DNA of 64,000 nucleotides. Source: Wohlfahrtiimonas sp. G9077. GTDB taxonomy: Bacteria; Pseudomonadota; Gammaproteobacteria; Cardiobacteriales; Wohlfahrtiimonadaceae. The stretch lies in NCBI RefSeq assembly GCF_002252155.1, contig NZ_NEFD01000001.1:124001-188000 (forward strand), read 5' to 3'. A program made the translations under genes and the position numbers. This document shows, one piece after another, positions 5,276-38,863 of the stretch. Position 1 is the first letter of the stretch; the number at the start of each line of letters is the position of its first letter. The notes beneath the pieces are model-generated. The model was not told the DNA's origin. It searched no databases and saw only the letters and a program-made list of their open reading frames with translations.

Positions 5276-5352
5276 GCGCTCGTAGCTCAGTTGGATAGAG
5301 TGTCAGTTTCCGAAACTGAAGGCCAGAGGTTCGATCCCTCTCGGGCGCGCCA
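5276..5352 (+). tRNA. tRNA-Arg (anticodon CCG)
   Basis: The 77-nt gene folds as a full cloverleaf. The acceptor stem is GCGCUCG/CGGGCGC, the D-arm GCUC...GAGU, the anticodon arm UCAGU-UUCCGAA-ACUGA (anticodon CCG), the T-arm includes GGUUCGAUCC, and CCA is encoded. It closely parallels E. coli tRNA-Arg(CCG). A TACAAT -10-like sequence lies at 5259-5264. Its 3' end is the prophage attachment site, and the gene remains intact on the attL side. Confidence 0.96.
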
Positions 5353-5357
5353 TTTTC
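5337..5357 (+). other. attL core (prophage left attachment site)
   Basis: This 21-bp sequence, from CCTCTCGGGC to the CCATTTTC just past the tRNA CCA end, recurs exactly at 34280-34300. It covers the last 16 bases of tRNA-Arg plus 5 bases beyond. The flanks differ on both sides, as expected for an integration duplication. Confidence 0.93.
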
Positions 5358-25242: not shown

Positions 25243-26235
25243 ATGCTTTTTGATACCAAAACACCACAATATGCCATTACTGTTGATGGAAAGAACATTA
25301 CCAGTCGCATTAATTCGCGCTTATTGTCCCTCAATTTGGTTGATAATCGTGGCTTTGATGCTGACACATTAACGCTTGTGATTGATGATAGCGATGGTCT
25401 TATGGCGTTGCCAAAGCGTGGCGTTAAGATCAATGTGAAGATTGGCTTTGGTGCATTGATTGATCGTGGGGATTTTGTGGTGGATGCAGTTTCACATACA
25501 GGCGCACCTGATGTGATCACAATTTCCGCCAATTCTGCGGACTTTAGAAAGAAGCTTTTGGAGCAGAAGAACAAGGCATATCATCAAAAGACCATCAAAG
25601 AGATTGTGGAAGCGATTGCAGGGGAGCACAAATTAGAATCCCGTGTGGCTGAGGAATTGGCCAACATTAAAGTGCAGGATCGTCAGCAACGCAATGAGAG
25701 TGATGCCAACTTTTTAACGCGTTTGGCTGAAGAGTTTGATGCTGTGGCCACAGTGAAAAAGGGTACCATCCTATTTTTGAAACGCGGGGAAAGCAAAACA
25801 GCCAGCGGCCAAGAGTTGCCCACAATCATCATTACCCGTAATCAAGGGGATAATCACAGTTATTCTGTGAATGATCGTGATGCTTATACAGGCATTAAAG
25901 CAAAATACACAACCACTAAGAACGGCGTGCGTAAAGAGGTTTTGGTGGGCGATGATGAGCGCACAAAGATGCTGCGCCGCATTTACAAAACGGAAGGTGA
26001 GGCAAGGGCAGCGGCAGAGAATGAATTGAAGCGGGTACAACGTGCAGCTGCATCATTTTCGTTTACGCTGGCGATGGGTCGCCCTGAGCTCATAGCAGAA
26101 AGCCCAGTGAAAGTACTGGGCTTTAAGGCGGAGATTGATTCACAAAATTGGATTGCTACTCGTGTGACTCATAACCTTGATCAGAGTGGTTTGACGACTC
26201 AGGTTGAGGCTGAAATAAAAGAATCTAAAGATTAA
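25243..26235 (+). CDS. D: Tail hub protein / late control protein D (P2 gpD-like)
   Basis: The 330-residue gpD forms the baseplate hub (T4 gp27-like). Family sequences include FDTKTPQYAITVDGKNITSRI at the start, LTLVIDDSDGLMALPKRGVKINVKIGF, and QRNESDANFLTRLAEEFDAVA near residue 155. The C-terminus has AAASFSFTLAMGRPELIAESPVKVLGF. It is the last gene of the rightward late region. A downstream terminator is not obvious, and the gene ends against leftward accessory genes, overlapping the DUF3800 gene by four bases. Confidence 0.93.
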   Translation: MLFDTKTPQYAITVDGKNITSRINSRLLSLNLVDNRGFDADTLTLVIDDSDGLMALPKRGVKINVKIGFGALIDRGDFVVDAVSHTGAPDVITISANSADFRKKLLEQKNKAYHQKTIKEIVEAIAGEHKLESRVAEELANIKVQDRQQRNESDANFLTRLAEEFDAVATVKKGTILFLKRGESKTASGQELPTIIITRNQGDNHSYSVNDRDAYTGIKAKYTTTKNGVRKEVLVGDDERTKMLRRIYKTEGEARAAAENELKRVQRAAASFSFTLAMGRPELIAESPVKVLGFKAEIDSQNWIATRVTHNLDQSGLTTQVEAEIKESKD

Positions 26236-27323
26236 TATTCTATTCTAGGGTTTTTATCATCCATTAGCCTTTCTAAAAACTTTTCTGTTCGTTCATTAAT
26301 ACTTTTAAGATCTAATGGGTGAACTTTAGTTTCTATTAATTCTTCTTCAACAAATTGTTTTAATACTGGTGTTAGGGGTTCTGTTAAGAAATATCTTTTG
26401 TATATCCATAGAAATACATCAACAATTTCTAAGCCTATATTTGTTTCTGATCCTGTTGGTGTTATTGGTGTACTTGGGTAGATAGAAAAATTTGGCGAAG
26501 GTATATATGAATCTATAGGTACATATCTTTCTTTCATTGTTGCATAGAGACTAGCTAGATCTTTTTGTGCTGAGTTAAATTGCTCTTGTCTATCGACTAT
26601 GATGCTTGTAATGTCAGAGTTATTTATTTGTGCGGTTTCTGCGATTTGATTAAGTACAGATTGAAATCCCATTAAATTAGGAGAGATTTGTAGGCCTTTT
26701 TTGTCATATCGGCCAGCCAAAGTGAATGTTGGTTTATAATTGTATTGTATTTTTTTTGGATTTTCTTGAACCCATGTTAATGCATTATTGATAATCTCTT
26801 GTGATCTCTTGTCGGTAATAAGGGGAATTCGTTGTTTTAAAATTTCACATACATTAATAAGTATATCGTTAGATTTTTCTATATTATTCTCTAATCTGGC
26901 CTCCCAGGCTAATTTACATAAATCATCATCAAATAAATACGCAACTTTAAGTAATAATACATATCTAAGTGGCGTCCAATATGCAGAGTGTGGAACAGAC
27001 TTATTATTACCAGAGTCAAATACTTGGTCAAAAAAAGACATAACAATATAATCAATTTTATTAAAATAATGTAAGTCAAATTTTAATTGATATTGTGCTC
27101 TAATCTGAGTTAGTTGATCAACAATAAGAGAAAGTTTATCTGGACCGAGCTCATTAGCATGTAGTCTATCTACGTGAAATAATTCACGCATAGAAATAAT
27201 CATATCTTGTAAAGTTATATTCAAGTCATCATTTGAAGATAAAACACCATAGAACAAAAGAGGTTGGTTTTTATCGAACAATTCATTTCCAGTATTACCG
27301 CTTTCATCGATCCAAAAATACAT
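26232..27323 (-). CDS. DUF3800-family protein (RNase H-like fold predicted)
   Basis: The 363-residue protein begins YFWIDESGNTG, the hallmark acidic motif of DUF3800. It continues with HANEL near residue 50 and a later conserved Asp in SIIVDRQEQFN near residue 220, the expected layout of an RNase H-like nuclease core. Start 27323 is chosen because the domain begins there and an AGGAAG site lies upstream; the open frame extends to 27401. DUF3800 genes are frequent in prophages and defence-rich islands but have no settled function. Here it is the distal member of a leftward, AT-rich cluster beside the repressor, 50 bp after a membrane-protein gene. Confidence 0.85.
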   Translation of the reverse strand: MYFWIDESGNTGNELFDKNQPLLFYGVLSSNDDLNITLQDMIISMRELFHVDRLHANELGPDKLSLIVDQLTQIRAQYQLKFDLHYFNKIDYIVMSFFDQVFDSGNNKSVPHSAYWTPLRYVLLLKVAYLFDDDLCKLAWEARLENNIEKSNDILINVCEILKQRIPLITDKRSQEIINNALTWVQENPKKIQYNYKPTFTLAGRYDKKGLQISPNLMGFQSVLNQIAETAQINNSDITSIIVDRQEQFNSAQKDLASLYATMKERYVPIDSYIPSPNFSIYPSTPITPTGSETNIGLEIVDVFLWIYKRYFLTEPLTPVLKQFVEEELIETKVHPLDLKSINERTEKFLERLMDDKNPRIEY

Positions 27324-27373
27324 ATTTCTTCCTAATTTACTATGAGGCAAAACCCGTTTTTGATAGAAAATAA

Positions 27374-27985
27374 TTAATTGTTTTGTGTAATGACTAACCA
27401 CATTATTTTAATTATCTCAATTATAAGTGAAATTATATTAAGTATCAGAAATGAAAACCATACAATCAGAATATTCTGTACTGAAAAGTATGGGATCTTA
27501 ATGTGGAAATAATCTAGTATTATGGCTAATAATAATGCCATGCCTACTATAAGTATTGTAATGTAAAATAGAAGTTTGCCAACTGTTGAAGGCTTATTAA
27601 TGTTCTCTGAGTTATTTAGAGATGATTCTTCAGGATTAGGCGTTAGAATATTAAAGATTTTTTGACAATACTGACTCTTTAATTCAGTAGAAATAAACTC
27701 GCTATCTAATATATTTTTTATTAAAAGACTTTTTATTTGGTCTATTGAGTATAATTTTTGATATGAAATTTTATATTCTATTGAAATAGCACTAGCAATT
27801 TGGCAAATAATGTCATGATTTAAATTAAAATTTTCTGGGATTAATTTTTTGATGATAGTAATAAGTTCTTTATTTGCTTTTCTTACTTCTAACGTTTTTT
27901 TAAGATAATTTGTAATACTGGTAATAAATACTAAAATTAAGCCAGAAATCACACCATAAATTATATTAGATATTATATTTATCAT
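27374..27985 (-). CDS. Membrane protein of prophage accessory cluster
   Basis: This unrecognised 203-residue protein has one N-terminal membrane helix (IIYGVISGLILVFITSI), a soluble helical segment of about 110 residues, and two C-terminal helices (LLFYITILIVGMALLLAIIL and IVWFSFLILNIISLIIEIIKIMW). Its composition is very AT-rich (many Ile, Asn, Lys). The start overlaps the stop of the BRCT-like gene (ATGA type), so the two are translated together. The layout would fit a membrane effector coupled to a sensor, but nothing in the sequence proves that. Confidence 0.75.
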   Translation of the reverse strand: MINIISNIIYGVISGLILVFITSITNYLKKTLEVRKANKELITIIKKLIPENFNLNHDIICQIASAISIEYKISYQKLYSIDQIKSLLIKNILDSEFISTELKSQYCQKIFNILTPNPEESSLNNSENINKPSTVGKLLFYITILIVGMALLLAIILDYFHIKIPYFSVQNILIVWFSFLILNIISLIIEIIKIMWLVITQNN

Positions 27986-28845
27986 GGTTGTGCCTTCGAT
28001 ACATAGGATATATCACCCGTATATAATAAAGTAATGAACTGTTCTTTATTCATAATCAATGTGCCATTCTCTGTGGCTCGTTCTATTTGTGTTTCAGGTA
28101 ATGCACCATTAGTAACAATAGCAAATAATGTCTTGGTTTGTGTTTTTAGTACTTTTAATCGATATGCTTTAGCAAGCTCTTCCAATTCAAGTGATTCAGA
28201 TTCTGAAAAGCCGATAATATTAATGCCTGTTCGTTTTATATCATGAGTCAATGATTTTATCTGCTTAACGATTGGTTGCCAATGCTGCAATTTTTCTTTA
28301 AACCTTTCTCCGCGTAAAACATTCAAAACATTTTCATAAGAAAAGGTCAAAATGTATTTATCATAACCATCTTCTAATACATAGCCATTAAAAAACATTG
28401 GATATTCACTTGTAATAATAAGGTTTAGATTTTTTTGTTCCCCTTTTTTATTGCTGTAGCGAATAGAAATAAAATTATCATTATGAGTGGCATATTCATC
28501 TAAATATGCCTCATACATCGCATCAACTATTTCTTGACCATTTGTAAAATATTCAATTTTCTCACGCACATAAGTTCTTTCAGCTTTTGCGGTATGACAA
28601 TATCCATAAATATAATTTTCATCTACTTGATGCAGGGTAATAGTTTTATATCGTTTGGCCTCTTCTAAATCTTCTTCCTCTTCTGTTAAATCCTCATCAT
28701 GATCGGGAAAATTTAGATAATAGAAAGATACTTTTTTCCCTTTTTTTGGCGAGATTTTTTGTTTTTGATTGCGTTTAAGCTTTTTATTTCGCATTAAAAT
28801 AAGAAGAAAAATCCCCACAATCACAAATGCCAAAAAGATTTCCAT
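27982..28845 (-). CDS. Membrane-anchored protein with WYL-like and BRCT-like parts
   Basis: This 287-residue protein has an N-terminal membrane helix (FLAFVIVGIFLLILM), a basic linker and an acidic linker. A segment at about residues 66-105 (ITLHQVDENYIYGYCHTAKAERTYVREKIEYF) resembles the beta-barrel of WYL-type ligand-binding domains. A C-terminal domain (about residues 205-275, NIIGFSESESLELEELAKAYRLKV ... FITLL) follows the BRCT pattern G-F-x(2)-E...L-x(2)-A. Both similarities are pattern judgements of moderate confidence. It follows the repressor gene by one base on the same strand, so it is probably expressed in the lysogen. Confidence 0.7.
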   Translation of the reverse strand: MEIFLAFVIVGIFLLILMRNKKLKRNQKQKISPKKGKKVSFYYLNFPDHDEDLTEEEEDLEEAKRYKTITLHQVDENYIYGYCHTAKAERTYVREKIEYFTNGQEIVDAMYEAYLDEYATHNDNFISIRYSNKKGEQKNLNLIITSEYPMFFNGYVLEDGYDKYILTFSYENVLNVLRGERFKEKLQHWQPIVKQIKSLTHDIKRTGINIIGFSESESLELEELAKAYRLKVLKTQTKTLFAIVTNGALPETQIERATENGTLIMNKEQFITLLYTGDISYVSKAQP

Positions 28846-34218: not shown

Positions 34219-34239
34219 AAAAATAAATACTCAAAATAT

Positions 34240-34275
34240 AAAGCCCTTTAAATCAAGGGCTTTAGTTGTTTTTAG
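34240..34275 (+). terminator. Terminator of the prophage early operon
   Basis: The inverted repeat AAAGCCCTT ... AAGGGCTTT with a TAAATC loop is followed by AGTTGTTTTT. It lies just before attR and would stop prophage transcription from entering the chromosome. Confidence 0.85.
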
Positions 34276-34279
34276 GTTT

Positions 34280-34300
34280 CCTCTCGGGCGCGCCATTTTC
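34280..34300 (+). other. attR core (prophage right attachment site)
   Basis: This is an exact 21-bp copy of 5337-5357, containing the last 16 bases of tRNA-Arg. The rest of the tRNA is absent here, so this is the partial copy. Bases immediately before and after differ from the attL side. Confidence 0.93.
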
Positions 34301-34454
34301 TTTCGATTGTTATGGAAATTCGCGGTCATCGTTGCGTGACTGATCCCAATTTGATCCCAACCATTCATATTTAAACGAACATTATCTTACGATATTCGCG
34401 ATCATCTTGTTGCCAAAATGTTGTATACTGGCCGATAAATTTTGCAAATGATGC

Positions 34455-34466
34455 GTCAATATTGAC
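34455..34466. promoter_or_regulatory. Perfect 12-bp palindrome upstream of the Nudix-helicase unit
   Basis: GTCAATATTGAC, a perfect palindrome, lies nine bases before ATG 34475 and 25 bases after a TATACT -10-like sequence (34424-34429). The position fits an operator covering the transcription start or leader. No regulator gene is adjacent. The rest of 34301-34474 shows no gene. Confidence 0.4.
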
Positions 34467-34474
34467 AAATAATA

Positions 34475-34882
34475 ATGGTTACAATGATGAAAGAAATAGA
34501 AGTGGTTGCGGCAGTCATTCAATATGAAGGCAAAATATTTTGTGCCCAGCGCGGGGCCAATGCAAAAGAGTATTTGGCATATAAATACGAATTTCCAGGT
34601 GGCAAAACAGAAGCCGGTGAAACCCATGAAGCGGCTTTGATTCGTGAAATTGATGAAGAGCTCAATTGGGTCATTCAAGTGGATGAGCCTTTGATCACAG
34701 TCCATCACACGTATCCTGATTTTAAAATCATCATGCACGCATTTTTATGCACGCCCCTTGATCTGAACTTTCGTTTAAATGAACACATGGATTATGTGTG
34801 GTTGCCCATCAGTGAGCTTTACGCATTAGATTGGGCTGCGGCGGATTTGCCCATTATTGATCAGCTCAGTTATCTTGAGTAA
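34475..34882 (+). CDS. Nudix hydrolase (NTP pyrophosphohydrolase-like)
   Basis: The 135-residue protein is close in size to MutT/NudG enzymes, which hydrolyse oxidised or modified nucleoside triphosphates. The Nudix box is present at about residues 41-63 (GGKTEAGETHEAALIREIDE followed by ELNW), with the metal-binding REIDEE intact. The box ends NW where Gly and an aliphatic residue are usual. ATG 34475 is used, with alternatives at 34484 and 34487, and no strong ribosome-binding site is seen for any. Five bases separate it from the helicase gene, so the two form a transcription unit. Confidence 0.88.
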   Translation: MVTMMKEIEVVAAVIQYEGKIFCAQRGANAKEYLAYKYEFPGGKTEAGETHEAALIREIDEELNWVIQVDEPLITVHHTYPDFKIIMHAFLCTPLDLNFRLNEHMDYVWLPISELYALDWAAADLPIIDQLSYLE

Positions 34883-34887
34883 GCGCT

Positions 34888-37830
34888 ATGAATGATCTTC
34901 TCAATGATTTGACCACAAGTTTTTATGACGTGGATCACATTTCAAGTGGGCAATATCTGCCTGCCATTTTAGTCAATGATTTTAGACGCGAAAAAAAGGT
35001 GCTCACCACGATTTTAGAGCAGCTGAAAACCTGTGATGAGTTCTTTATCTCGGTGGCCTTTGTGACGACAGGCGGCGTTGCGGTGATTCGTGAGGCGCTA
35101 GATGAGTTGAATCGTAAAGCGATTAAAGGCGTGATCATTGTGTCACAGTATCTTAATTTTACCGATCCTGCGGCGCTTGAGCGTTTATTGGCCTATCCAA
35201 ACATTGAATTGCGCATTGATGTGCACAACAGCTTTCATGCCAAATGTTTTTATTTTGAAAAGGGCGAGCAGAGCATTGTGGTCATTGGCAGTAGCAATTT
35301 GACGGACAGCGCCTTATGCAAAAATTATGAATTTAACATTAAATTAGATGCCTCCATTAATGGCGAGATCATCGAGCAGATCAAAGCTGAACAACAAGTG
35401 ATGTATGAGCGCTCCATTGAGGTTAATCAAGCCATCATTGATCAATATCGTGTGCAGTATGAGCAATTGCGCTTTGGCAGAAACCAATTGCAGCATACGA
35501 AAATCACAAGCGGGCAACACATTGCACCGAATGCCATGCAATTAAAAGCTTTGGATAATTTACAACATCTTCGCGATGAAAAAGGGGCAACAAAGGCATT
35601 GCTCATTTCTGCAACCGGCACGGGCAAAACTTATCTATCGGCGTTTGATGTGGCGCGCGTTCAACCCAAAAAATTCCTCTTTTTAGTGCACAGAAGCACG
35701 ATTGCAGCCAAATCTATGCAGTCGTATCAAAAGATATTGTCAAGCGTTGCAGGCCATGATCCGCACATGACCTTTGGCTTATTTGATGGCAATCATAAAG
35801 ATTACGCTGCCGATTATCTCTTTGCCACGGTGCAAACCATGAGTTTGCCCCATCATTTAGCGCATTTTTCTCAAGATCATTTTGATTACATTGTGATTGA
35901 TGAAACCCATCGCGCAGCAGCGCAAACGTATCAAACCATTCTTAACCATTTTACGCCCAAATTTTTATTGGGCATGACAGCAACGCCAGAGCGCATGAGT
36001 GGTGAAGATATTTTTCAATATTTTGATCACAACATTGCCTATGAAATTCGCTTAAAAGATGCACTGGAAGCGGATTTACTCACCACATTTCATTATTACG
36101 GCATTGCGGACATTGTATTGACGGACGATGTGAAAAAGCCGCCAAGCTTTAATCAATTGATTCGTGAAGAACGTGTGGCGCACATTTTGGAGAAAATCAC
36201 CCATTATTCTACGGATACCGGAGATTATCGCGGTCTGGTTTTTTGCTCAAGTGTAGAAGAAGCCGATGCATTATCCGCACAATTTTGTGGGTTTGGTTTT
36301 CGTGCATGTGCTTTGTCTGGGCGCCACAGTGAACATGAACGTGAGGCGGCGATTGAATCGCTCGAATCTGATGATGTGGATCATCTACAATTCATTTTCA
36401 CGGTGGATATTTTCAATGAAGGGATCGACATTCCGCGCGTGAATCTCATTGTGATGTTGCGCGCAACGCAATCGGTGATTGTGTTTGTACAGCAGCTTGG
36501 GCGTGGTTTACGGAAAGCTGAGGATAAATCTTATGTCACGGTGTTGGATTTTATTGGTAATTATGCCAATAACTATATGATTCCGATGGCGCTGTTTGGG
36601 GATCATTCCTACAACAAAGATGCGCTTCGCCGAAAAATGAGTGAAGGCAGCAGCGCGTTGCCGGGCGCATCGAGCATTAGTTTTGATGCCATTACAGAGC
36701 AGCGCATTTATGCTGCGATTAATCAAGCATCCTTTGACCATAAAAAAGATTTAGCCACGGACATGAAGGCGCTCTTTGATAAACTTGGACATATGCCGAC
36801 GCCCATTGACTTTATCCGACATGGCGCGCGTGATCCTTATCAATACATTCGGGTGTTTGGCAGTTACTATCAAACGCTGAAATATGTTTTTAAAGCGCAT
36901 GTGCCGCCAATTTCAGAGGATGCTGCCGCCATGCTGCGTTACTTTGATGGTGAGATCAATAATGCCAAGCGCATTACAGAAAGTTGTCTGCTCTTTGAAT
37001 TATTACAGCATCACGTCATCACGTTGGATGCATTCAAATCCCATTGCAATGCCCATTTTCACTTTACGCCAACGGATGCGGACATTATTTCAGTGGTGGA
37101 TAATCTTAACTTTAGCTTTGTGGTGACTGAAGTTAATAAACGCAAAGTGGTTTATCGTCACAGTGCATATTTAAAAGATGCAACATTGTATGATGTGGTG
37201 ACATTTGATGGGCAATCCTTTGCTTTGACGCCACAATTTAAAACATTGCTGGCGCAATCAAGTTTTAAAAGCCATTTGATGCAATCGGTGGATTTGGCCC
37301 GTGCCATTTATCGACAAAAGTTGGCCGATTCATGTTTGATTGATGGGCGCTTTATTTTGTATGAAAAATATAGCCGTAAAGATGTCTTTCGCATTCTTAA
37401 TTATCAGGAAAATCCAAATGCGCAAAGTGTTGGCGGTTATTTGTTTGATCGCGCAGAAACAGTGTGCCCCATTTTTGTCAATTATCATAAAGATGAAAAC
37501 ATCAGTGAGCGCACCAAATATGAGGATGCTTTTTTAAATCCATCGCTCCTTCATTGGTTTTCAAAAGGGCAGCGCACGATGCTCAGTAAAGATGTGCAGG
37601 CGTTTTATCACAGTCAATCGCGCAATATCGCGTTGTATCTTTTTGTGAAAAAAGACAATGATGAAGGACGAGAATTTTATTGTTTAGGGCGCGTTCAACC
37701 CGATCAAAAGAGCTTTAGAGAAGAAAAAATGCCGATCTCAGCAGACAAAACACAAAATGTGGTAACCCTCAATTTAGAGCTCAAGCAAGCGGTGAAAGAG
37801 AGTTTGTATCAGTATTTGATTCATCCATAA
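34888..37830 (+). CDS. PLD nuclease - SF2 helicase - DUF3427 protein
   Basis: This 980-residue multi-domain protein begins with a phospholipase-D-type nuclease half-site (HAKCFYF near residue 117, then GSSNLTDS near 134; the HxK plus N/D layout). The SF2 helicase core has Walker A SATGTGKTYLS (about 240), DEAH-type box VIDETHRAA (about 335), GMTATPERM (about 361) and motif VI QQLGRGLRK (about 535). The last 300 residues match the DUF3427 pattern (YSRKDVFRILNY, PIFVNYHK, LFVKKDNDEGREFYCLG). Such proteins occur scattered in genomes and are often suspected of DNA defence. It is co-transcribed with the Nudix gene beside a prophage boundary. Confidence 0.9.
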   Translation: MNDLLNDLTTSFYDVDHISSGQYLPAILVNDFRREKKVLTTILEQLKTCDEFFISVAFVTTGGVAVIREALDELNRKAIKGVIIVSQYLNFTDPAALERLLAYPNIELRIDVHNSFHAKCFYFEKGEQSIVVIGSSNLTDSALCKNYEFNIKLDASINGEIIEQIKAEQQVMYERSIEVNQAIIDQYRVQYEQLRFGRNQLQHTKITSGQHIAPNAMQLKALDNLQHLRDEKGATKALLISATGTGKTYLSAFDVARVQPKKFLFLVHRSTIAAKSMQSYQKILSSVAGHDPHMTFGLFDGNHKDYAADYLFATVQTMSLPHHLAHFSQDHFDYIVIDETHRAAAQTYQTILNHFTPKFLLGMTATPERMSGEDIFQYFDHNIAYEIRLKDALEADLLTTFHYYGIADIVLTDDVKKPPSFNQLIREERVAHILEKITHYSTDTGDYRGLVFCSSVEEADALSAQFCGFGFRACALSGRHSEHEREAAIESLESDDVDHLQFIFTVDIFNEGIDIPRVNLIVMLRATQSVIVFVQQLGRGLRKAEDKSYVTVLDFIGNYANNYMIPMALFGDHSYNKDALRRKMSEGSSALPGASSISFDAITEQRIYAAINQASFDHKKDLATDMKALFDKLGHMPTPIDFIRHGARDPYQYIRVFGSYYQTLKYVFKAHVPPISEDAAAMLRYFDGEINNAKRITESCLLFELLQHHVITLDAFKSHCNAHFHFTPTDADIISVVDNLNFSFVVTEVNKRKVVYRHSAYLKDATLYDVVTFDGQSFALTPQFKTLLAQSSFKSHLMQSVDLARAIYRQKLADSCLIDGRFILYEKYSRKDVFRILNYQENPNAQSVGGYLFDRAETVCPIFVNYHKDENISERTKYEDAFLNPSLLHWFSKGQRTMLSKDVQAFYHSQSRNIALYLFVKKDNDEGREFYCLGRVQPDQKSFREEKMPISADKTQNVVTLNLELKQAVKESLYQYLIHP

Positions 37831-37833
37831 AGC

Positions 37834-37855
37834 AAAACCCCGCTTTGCGGGGCTT
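37834..37855. terminator. Bidirectional terminator between helicase gene and yicC
   Basis: A GC-rich hairpin CCCCGC-TTT-GCGGGG (37838-37852) is flanked by AAAA on the left and CTTT on the right. On the minus strand the T run after the stem is good, so it serves yicC at least as well as the helicase gene. Confidence 0.85.
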
Positions 37856-37866
37856 TAATGTGGCGA

Positions 37867-38733
37867 TTATTCGATGTTTTGAATCTGTTCGCGGATCTGT
37901 TCGATCAATACTTTTAACTCAACGGCAATCGCGGTGAGTTCAGCATCTTGGGACTTTGAGCCAAGGGTGTTGGCTTCGCGGTTTAACTCTTGGGTTAAAA
38001 AGTCTAAGCGGCGGCCGATCGGTTCATTGCGGGCAATGGCATCGGTCATCGCCACGACGTGGGAATGGAGGCGGTCGATCTCTTCATCGATGTCCAATTT
38101 TTGAATGGCAAACACCAACTCTTGCTCTAAACGTTGTTGATCCACTTCAATGGCAAATTCAGCTAAGCGCGCCGTTAATTTATCACGAAGGCGCGTGATG
38201 GCTTCAGGGCGAAGGGCTTGGGCTTTTTCAGTCAGCGCCGCGATTTTGCTTAAACGATCTTCAATCACCGCTTGAATGCGTGCGCCTTCTGCTTGGCGAT
38301 TTTTGGCCAATGATTCAAGCGCCGTTGCAAAGGTTTGTGTGGTGATGCTTTCTAACGCATCGGGATCCGGCGTGCGTGTGATGAGCATGTTTGGAAAGCG
38401 CATCAATTCAGATGGGCTCAAAGCATGTGCTGTCCCAAGGATGGCATTGGCTTCTTGATGCAGTGCGATCACATTTTTGGCCAATGTTTCATTGAGGGTT
38501 AAATGTTCATTGGTGGCGCCCGCAGCTTCTAAGCGCATCATGATCTCAAGTTTACCGCGCTTTAATACGGATTGCACTTGATCACGTAAGGCAGGTTCAA
38601 AGGCACGCAATAGGTCTGGCAATTTAAAATAGGTTTCTAAATAGCGGTGATTGATGCTGCGTAGCTCAATGGATAATGTACCAAAGTCTGTCGCTACGGT
38701 TTCTCTGGCAAAACCTGTCATGGAGGAGATCAT
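37867..38733 (-). CDS. yicC: YicC-family endoribonuclease
   Basis: YicC proteins are RNases implicated in small-RNA turnover and stationary-phase survival. The roughly 288-residue protein starts ISSMTGFARE, the strongly conserved family N-terminus, and contains SIELRSINHRYLETYFKLPD. The C-terminal DUF1732 part includes DIDEEIDRLHSHV and IGRRLDFLTQELNREANTLGSKS. Start 38733 is set by the family N-terminus; an open frame continues upstream to 38802. It is divergent from folE, with about 130 bp between. Confidence 0.95.
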   Translation of the reverse strand: MISSMTGFARETVATDFGTLSIELRSINHRYLETYFKLPDLLRAFEPALRDQVQSVLKRGKLEIMMRLEAAGATNEHLTLNETLAKNVIALHQEANAILGTAHALSPSELMRFPNMLITRTPDPDALESITTQTFATALESLAKNRQAEGARIQAVIEDRLSKIAALTEKAQALRPEAITRLRDKLTARLAEFAIEVDQQRLEQELVFAIQKLDIDEEIDRLHSHVVAMTDAIARNEPIGRRLDFLTQELNREANTLGSKSQDAELTAIAVELKVLIEQIREQIQNIE

Positions 38734-38863
38734 ACTGTTCCTTAAAATTACGATAAACAAAAAGCAATTATAACGCTCTTTATGGGATTTGGTGAATATC
38801 ATTGATCAATGTTGCAATTCCTAGTAAACTTCGGAGCTTTATTCACATTATTGAGTTGCGATC

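Follow-up and report, generated by a model that had tools for sequence, protein, structure and literature searches.

A Nudix hydrolase gene beside a SauUSI-type restriction gene in Wohlfahrtiimonas: a likely two-layer exclusion of 5-modified cytosine

Type IV restriction enzymes act without a partner methyltransferase, and the usual assumption has been that they need no self-protection. Among them, SauUSI of Staphylococcus aureus recognizes 5-methylcytosine (5mC) and 5-hydroxymethylcytosine (5hmC) through its SRA domain, translocates at the expense of ATP and shreds the DNA between sites (PMC7913695); alone it cleaves DNA in vitro, and from a cloned gene it confers restriction on Escherichia coli (PMC3874153). 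At the nucleotide level, the solved Nudix hydrolase 3GWY of Bacteroides fragilis (Q5LBB1) has been screened on 74 compounds. Its best substrates are 5-methyl-CTP (5-Me-CTP), 5-Me-dCTP and 5-hydroxymethyl-dCTP, with kcat/Km values of 4-7x10^6 M-1 s-1 (4.8e6 for 5-Me-dCTP and 4.4e6 for 5-hydroxymethyl-dCTP), and activity on canonical nucleoside triphosphates is much lower; the authors explain the activity by removal of mutagenic nucleotides, with no mention of restriction in the accessible part of their report (PMC5158307). These substrates carry, as free triphosphates, the same bases that mark DNA for cutting by SauUSI. The two kinds of genes have been seen side by side before: MutT homologues lie beside SauUSI homologues in Streptococcus, where the legend of Fig. 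9 calls them a small 'DNA repair' protein (PMC7641849), and in Streptococcus suis PDC-S07, an orphan defense candidate of PADLOC, co-localized with type IV restriction in 23 of 23 cases (PMC12813430). No mechanistic link of the Nudix to type IV restriction, and no joining of adjacency with substrate data, was found in the literature; subscription journals and bioRxiv lay mostly outside the search, and a prior description there is possible. Here we describe such a pair in 64,000 nucleotides of Wohlfahrtiimonas sp. G9077 (contig NZ_NEFD01000001.1, positions 124,001 to 188,000), hereafter the window. Whatever its main purpose, the pair is likely to exclude 5-modified cytosine in two layers, from DNA and from the nucleotide pool. 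The genes and the domains of the larger product are the following:

34475..34882, + strand: Nudix hydrolase gene, 135 amino acids (aa) (open reading frame list; PADLOC PDC-S07; closest solved relative 3GWY)
34888..37830, + strand: gene for a predicted SauUSI-type ATP-dependent type IV (modification-dependent) restriction endonuclease, 980 aa (domain, profile and structure matches)
34951..35430, + strand: PLD-family nuclease domain, residues ~22-181, catalytic H117-x-K119 (Pfam, alignment, model)
35518..36585, + strand: SF2 helicase-like ATPase/translocase, residues ~211-566 (Pfam, motifs, model)
36946..37818, + strand: DUF3427, residues 687-977, coupler plus C-terminal SRA-type 5mC/5hmC reader (Pfam; SRA assignment after PMC7913695)

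The open reading frame coordinates bear out the original prediction that a Nudix gene and a PLD/SF2/DUF3427 gene occupy 34475-37830 five bases apart; both are on the + strand and the gap is 34883-34887. The HxK nuclease half-site, the complete SF2 helicase and the DUF3427 domain that it had read in the large protein are likewise all present, in a single chain whose Pfam domain order is PLD nuclease, SF2 ATPase, coupler and C-terminal SRA/DUF3427. H117 and K119 of the PLD domain are invariant among relatives, and the SF2 motifs are intact (Walker A ATGTGKT at 242-248, DETH at 338-341 and QQLGRGLRK at 535-543). The protein matches SauUSI (PDB 7clg) over its full length with E=6.5e-200, and the PADLOC mREase_IV (type IV) profile with E=5e-209. 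AlphaFold2 was given the window protein together with 34 relatives. The resulting model, with a mean predicted local distance difference test score of 80.9, matches 7clg at a Foldseek E of 9e-69 and at Z=45.8 over 785 residues (15-979), the next best structure reaching Z=19.6, and the fold match includes the C-terminal domain. Most residues of the SRA reader pocket are conserved as well: F863, V864, D880 and W890 correspond to F841, I842, D858 and W868 of SauUSI, and an aromatic residue takes the position of SauUSI Y831, where the alignment is uncertain by 1-2 residues. Judged by sequence and predicted structure, the 980-aa protein thus belongs, as an unexceptional member, to the known SauUSI-type family of type IV restriction enzymes. 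The earlier suspicion of a DNA-defense effector is in this way substantiated, and the statement that the pair had no established function no longer applies to the large protein. A search of the host genome for a C5-cytosine methyltransferase (PF00145) gave no match, 10 of 14 control genomes having one, and this is what a cell carrying a 5mC-cutting enzyme should look like. A variation on the same enzyme was seen in ten SauUSI-type genes of Bacteroidota (L087, L088, L090, L092, L094, L097, L100, L105, L116 and L137), where an extra C-terminal domain of ~170 aa resembles the S24 peptidases of the LexA/UmuD type, with a Pfam S24 match in L087 and a likely catalytic Ser (GESM) plus Lys; its sequence suggests self-cleavage, perhaps with a link to DNA damage.

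The association of this enzyme with a Nudix gene is widespread. The original prediction had proposed a neighborhood analysis of DUF3427 helicases, and among 80 named SauUSI-type loci of bacteria and archaea a Nudix gene of the PDC-S07 family proved to be the direct neighbor at 73. For five of the remaining seven the Nudix is encoded at another place in the same genome; of the last two, one has a truncated restriction gene. Three layouts were found over 78 pairs (56 with the Nudix upstream on the same strand, 15 downstream on the same strand and 7 downstream on the opposite strand), which shows that inheritance of a single operon does not alone account for the pairing, and the protein distances of the partners agree (Mantel r=0.69, p<0.001). 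A second sample, of genomes drawn evenly from whole phyla, gave pairing of the full-length SauUSI type in 8/8 cases in Bacteroidota, 12/14 in Bacillota and 2/2 in Pseudomonadota. Phage and plasmid records yielded the S. aureus locus and further paired copies. Two of these records, OR845003.1 labeled 'Staphylococcus phage' (L080) and NZ_CP077890.1 labeled S. aureus 'plasmid' (L079), surround the SauUSI/Nudix locus with chromosomal-type neighbors and are probably chromosomal contamination or mis-assembly. A gene for a MazG-like nucleotide pyrophosphohydrolase also recurs near SauUSI/Nudix pairs, often together with a Schlafen-group-3 (SLFN) helicase (L083:6865-8945, L102:2259-4468, L099:3585-5809, L106 and L156), sometimes alone (L115, L149) and once upstream of a pair of another kind, Nudix with an SRA-HNH nuclease (L321:4586-4984); by its sequence it would be a second nucleotide-cleaning enzyme of these neighborhoods.

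Which part of the large protein the Nudix goes with can be read from relatives that have the same PLD and SF2 parts. They form two further groups, assigned by score and open reading frame length, so that a few may be misfiled: a long one of ~1,050 aa with a more distant DUF3427 (L199, L206), and a short one, mostly of ~800 aa, classed as lacking DUF3427 (Pfam-checked in L267 alone). Of 40 short-group genes, all from Bacteroidota/Bacillota, only three are paired. Two of these are truncated, one being of the SauUSI type and the other of the long group, and the third stands next to a SauUSI-type gene; the SauUSI type and the short group differ in pairing with Fisher p=4e-11. The Nudix follows the modified-base reader, not the nuclease or the motor. 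A broader association, with all PLD-SF2-DUF3427 proteins, was considered and rejected: it holds for the SauUSI type, partially for the long class and for none of the Pseudomonadota members of the latter.

The same Nudix accompanies nucleases of another kind. When viral contigs were searched with 3GWY, 13 prophage contigs were found in which the Nudix stands immediately upstream of a protein of 272-277 aa; these are Acinetobacter-like, a host guessed from neighboring phage genes. The search was aimed at the neighborhood of the 3GWY gene in B. fragilis, and no B. fragilis copy of that gene was found among the viral contigs. The 272-277 aa protein matches SAD_SRA weakly, contains an HNH domain and resembles two modification-dependent nucleases, EcoKMcrA and TagI. 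In a search with this SRA-HNH family, the Nudix was the gene immediately upstream at 18 of 20 loci on viral contigs, several of which are nearly identical to one another. It also adjoins SRA-HNH genes at five loci in four Bacillota genomes, and is fused with SRA-HNH in one reading frame in two Bacillota genomes (L390, 414 aa; L391, 422 aa), as Pfam and PADLOC profiles confirm. In one of the Bacteroidota (L346) a classical SAD_SRA-HNH gene overlaps a Nudix gene. What the SauUSI-type and SRA-HNH nucleases, otherwise unrelated, have in common is the reading of modified cytosine. On balance it seems probable that modified-cytosine restriction in bacteria and archaea is generally a two-component affair, in which a 5mC/5hmC-reading nuclease, SauUSI of S. 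aureus included, works with an overlooked 5-methyl/5-hydroxymethyl-dCTP pyrophosphatase, in effect an immunity function, that at least two unrelated types of nuclease have gained independently, one of them also in fused form.

Other settings of the PDC-S07 Nudix were noted in passing. A 790-aa fusion in one of the Bacteroidota (G589, L359:3015-5387) joins it to an SLFN-group-3 helicase that matches PADLOC candidate PDC-S41 with E=8.5e-287. In one of the Bacillota (G1036, L327:4525-7033) the genes of a GmrSD-type (DUF262/DUF1524) nuclease, the Nudix and a shortened SRA-HNH protein overlap successively, and the Nudix may accompany GmrSD enzymes too. On plasmid pTS1 of Treponema saccharophilum (L086:3601-5420) a PDC-S07-like Nudix gene overlaps that of an AbiEii-type AAA ATPase (AAA_21) by 4 base pairs (bp), near a cytosine methyltransferase and an Eco47II-type enzyme, a further defense-like setting.

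At the level of the Nudix itself, the window protein matches the PDC-S07 profile (PDLC04899) with E=1.2e-46 and 155.7 bits, and its closest solved relative is 3GWY (E=1.4e-41, ~54% identical). The Nudix box Gx5Ex7REUxEE is present (G43, E49, R57, E58, E61 and E62); where the classical box ends in Gly, the window protein has Asn and 3GWY has Asp. In a tree of 129 Nudix proteins, 3GWY falls in a clade of 60 tips with support 0.996, whose other tips are 57 partners of SauUSI-type and 2 of SRA-HNH enzymes; the window Nudix belongs to this clade, apart from MutT. By analogy with 3GWY, it probably hydrolyzes the same 5-modified dCTPs.

These data can be combined in the following model. In the first layer, the C-terminal SRA/DUF3427 domain would read 5mC and 5hmC in DNA, the SF2 motor would translocate, and a dimer of the PLD domain would cut both strands, as in SauUSI. 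In the second, the Nudix would hydrolyze 5-methyl-dCTP and 5-hydroxymethyl-dCTP to monophosphates before polymerases could use them. Such triphosphates might come from the salvage of degraded foreign DNA or from an infecting phage, and once polymerized into the host chromosome they would make it a target of the first layer, an outcome that the Nudix would prevent. Self-protection would be needed because a type IV enzyme has no methyltransferase marking 'self'. As a second benefit, phages that require 5hm-dCTP or 5m-dCTP would be deprived of their precursor. The model draws on homology, pairing, fusion and conserved active sites from this analysis, and on the activity of SauUSI and the kinetics of 3GWY established by others; that the window Nudix shares the substrates of 3GWY, and why the cell needs it, we infer. 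Self-protection as the main role of the Nudix layer is put forward tentatively, at slightly less than an even chance.

Several points weigh against this reading. SauUSI is active alone in E. coli (PMC3874153), so cutting does not depend on the Nudix as a cofactor. The long DUF3427 group is paired in 16 of 46 cases in Bacteroidota/Bacillota and in 0 of 16 in Pseudomonadota. Some genomes have a SauUSI-type gene and no PDC-S07 Nudix at all (G037, G958, G453 with locus L124, the Fusobacterium record W01, and G451, where the gene is truncated). Conversely, many PDC-S07 Nudix genes are unpaired and adjoin housekeeping genes, which means that the family has other uses too. Residue D124, tried as a marker of cytosine specificity, was rejected, being invariant in paired and unpaired Nudix alike, and lends no support. 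Finally, the family data decide neither for self-protection nor for phage starvation as the main purpose.

Phage starvation is the alternative that survives best, although as the main role we regard it as rather unlikely. The Nudix would be a direct anti-phage arm, destroying the 5hm-dCTP or 5m-dCTP pool of T4-like or XP12-like phages, and the phage would be caught either way: its modified DNA would be cut, and when deprived of modified dCTP it would fail to replicate or make unmodified DNA. The location of the pair and of its SRA-HNH counterpart at mobile sites and in prophages fits with this idea, as does the listing of the Nudix by PADLOC as a stand-alone defense candidate. Moreover, hm5C enters phage DNA via the hmdCTP pool (PMC3874153), and 3GWY is equally active on 5-Me- and 5-hydroxymethyl-dCTP (PMC5158307). 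However, an anti-phage role alone leaves the close tie between Nudix and reader unexplained. No phage test of the Nudix alone is known to us, nor are phages with 5hmC-DNA known to us for many of the hosts that bear the pair, such as methanogenic archaea.

Improbable, to a clearly greater degree, is an ordinary housecleaner of the MutT/NudG kind, acting on 8-oxo-dGTP or oxidized CTP and accompanying the restriction gene either accidentally or in a general anti-mutator role. Its superfamily membership and its many unpaired close relatives near housekeeping genes would agree with such a role, but the window protein stays below the NCBIfam cut-offs for both MutT (TIGR00586, 76.3 of 97.9 bits) and NudG (PRK10546, 84.8 of 156 bits), the host already has its own MutT-like gene elsewhere, the pairing depends on a modified-base reader and fusions exist. 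Least probable is that the Nudix produces, breaks down or detects a nucleotide signal switching the nuclease on or off: some defense systems use such signals, and Nudix enzymes can cleave ADP-ribose-type molecules, but SauUSI requires only ATP and modified DNA (PMC7913695, PMC3874153), the nearest characterized Nudix acts on 5-modified (d)CTP, and no nucleotide cyclase or synthase was found among the genes that flank the pair, yicC and folE. The original prediction had offered nucleotide-signal or modified-nucleotide sensing; the link to modified nucleotides was well aimed, given the hydrolysis of 5-methyl- and 5-hydroxymethyl-(d)CTP by 3GWY (PMC5158307), and nothing points to signaling.

The surroundings of the pair place it at the edge of a prophage, with the following features:

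5337..5357, + strand: attL, 21 bp, overlapping the 3' end of tRNA-Arg(CCG) 5276-5352 (attachment repeat)
34239..34264, either strand: two-way terminator-like hairpin between the last prophage gene and attR
34280..34300, + strand: attR, 21 bp (attachment repeat)
37838..37852, + strand: terminator-like hairpin 3' of the restriction gene

The attachment repeat is the 21-bp sequence CCTCTCGGGCGCGCCATTTTC, whose attL copy covers the last bases of tRNA-Arg(CCG) and the next 5 bp. Between attL and attR lies a P2-like prophage (terminase, scaffold, tail sheath, tape measure and a CI-type repressor). The distance from attR to the start of the Nudix gene is exactly 174 bp, as had been said of this prophage boundary. 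Since the pair is flanked by the two hairpins, it looks like one transcription unit. The perfect palindrome pointed out before the pair exists, as the 12-mer GTCAATATTGAC at 34455-34466, and carries no weight because the window holds 29 perfect palindromes of that length. With a GC content of 0.42, the pair is slightly poorer in GC than the host DNA on either side (0.46). The original prediction had named, as an outcome that would speak against it, a pair fixed in the core genome outside any island; this is not what was found: the pair is carried by two of six genomes of the genus, that of the window (G000) and G001, whose restriction enzyme is 96.7% identical, and is absent from the other four. 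In both carriers it adjoins yicC just outside attR of related prophages, and a search for a second attachment copy beyond the pair, which would place it inside the prophage, found none. The pair is thus accessory, being present in two of the six genus members only, and sits at an insertion-prone tRNA-Arg site; it is not prophage cargo in the strict sense, and a status as such cargo or as core genes was rejected. In G002-G005 the yicC/tRNA-Arg region has instead a gene of the metallo-beta-lactamase fold, with an integrase or other prophage genes in G003 and G004, and in the family member G007 tRNA-Arg directly adjoins yicC. The region (window 5276-5357 and 34280-38802; L053-L059) is a hot spot of insertion and rearrangement in Wohlfahrtiimonadaceae, the relative orientation of tRNA-Arg and yicC and the genes between them varying among these relatives. 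Within the prophage, a block on the - strand at 26232-28845 codes for three proteins, one with DUF3800 and the other two lacking any known domain; it partly differs between related prophages, G001 having another gene in place of the first two, and is a possible cargo or defense slot.

If a hydrolase of modified dCTP is a standard partner of type IV enzymes, restriction would reach beyond DNA to the nucleotide pool. A role would also be found for a Nudix family whose preference for 5-Me-(d)CTP and 5-hydroxymethyl-dCTP has been explained only by mutagen clean-up, and the orphan PDC-S07 would become a component with a testable mechanism. In relation to what was known, the restriction gene is ordinary and the adjacency had been noted in passing, and the window adds a further instance of a widespread pair, the second component of which had gone unexplained. 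Compared with SauUSI of S. aureus (7CLG), to which it is ~35-40% identical, the window enzyme has the same full-length domain order, the same HxK and helicase motifs and most of the SRA pocket residues; the S. aureus-type locus (L080) also has a Nudix gene, 1 bp upstream, whose product is apparently the protein of PDB 5X1X, but the accessible part of the published SauUSI work does not treat it as part of the system. The Streptococcus loci (PMC7641849) contain the same gene pair, and no survey, substrate link or mechanism is given there. The window Nudix shares with 3GWY ~54% of its residues, a common clade and the catalytic residues; the substrates of 3GWY come from an assay, whereas those of the window protein are predicted from this likeness. 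PADLOC lists PDC-S07, which the window Nudix matches, as a single-gene candidate without mechanism, and here it appears as the partner of modified-cytosine nucleases. Lastly, the SRA-HNH enzymes of the McrA type, including EcoKMcrA (6GHC) and TagI (6GHS), resemble the window system in reading modified cytosine, and many adjoin or are fused with the same Nudix; they differ from it in an unrelated HNH nuclease that has no ATPase and is absent from the window.

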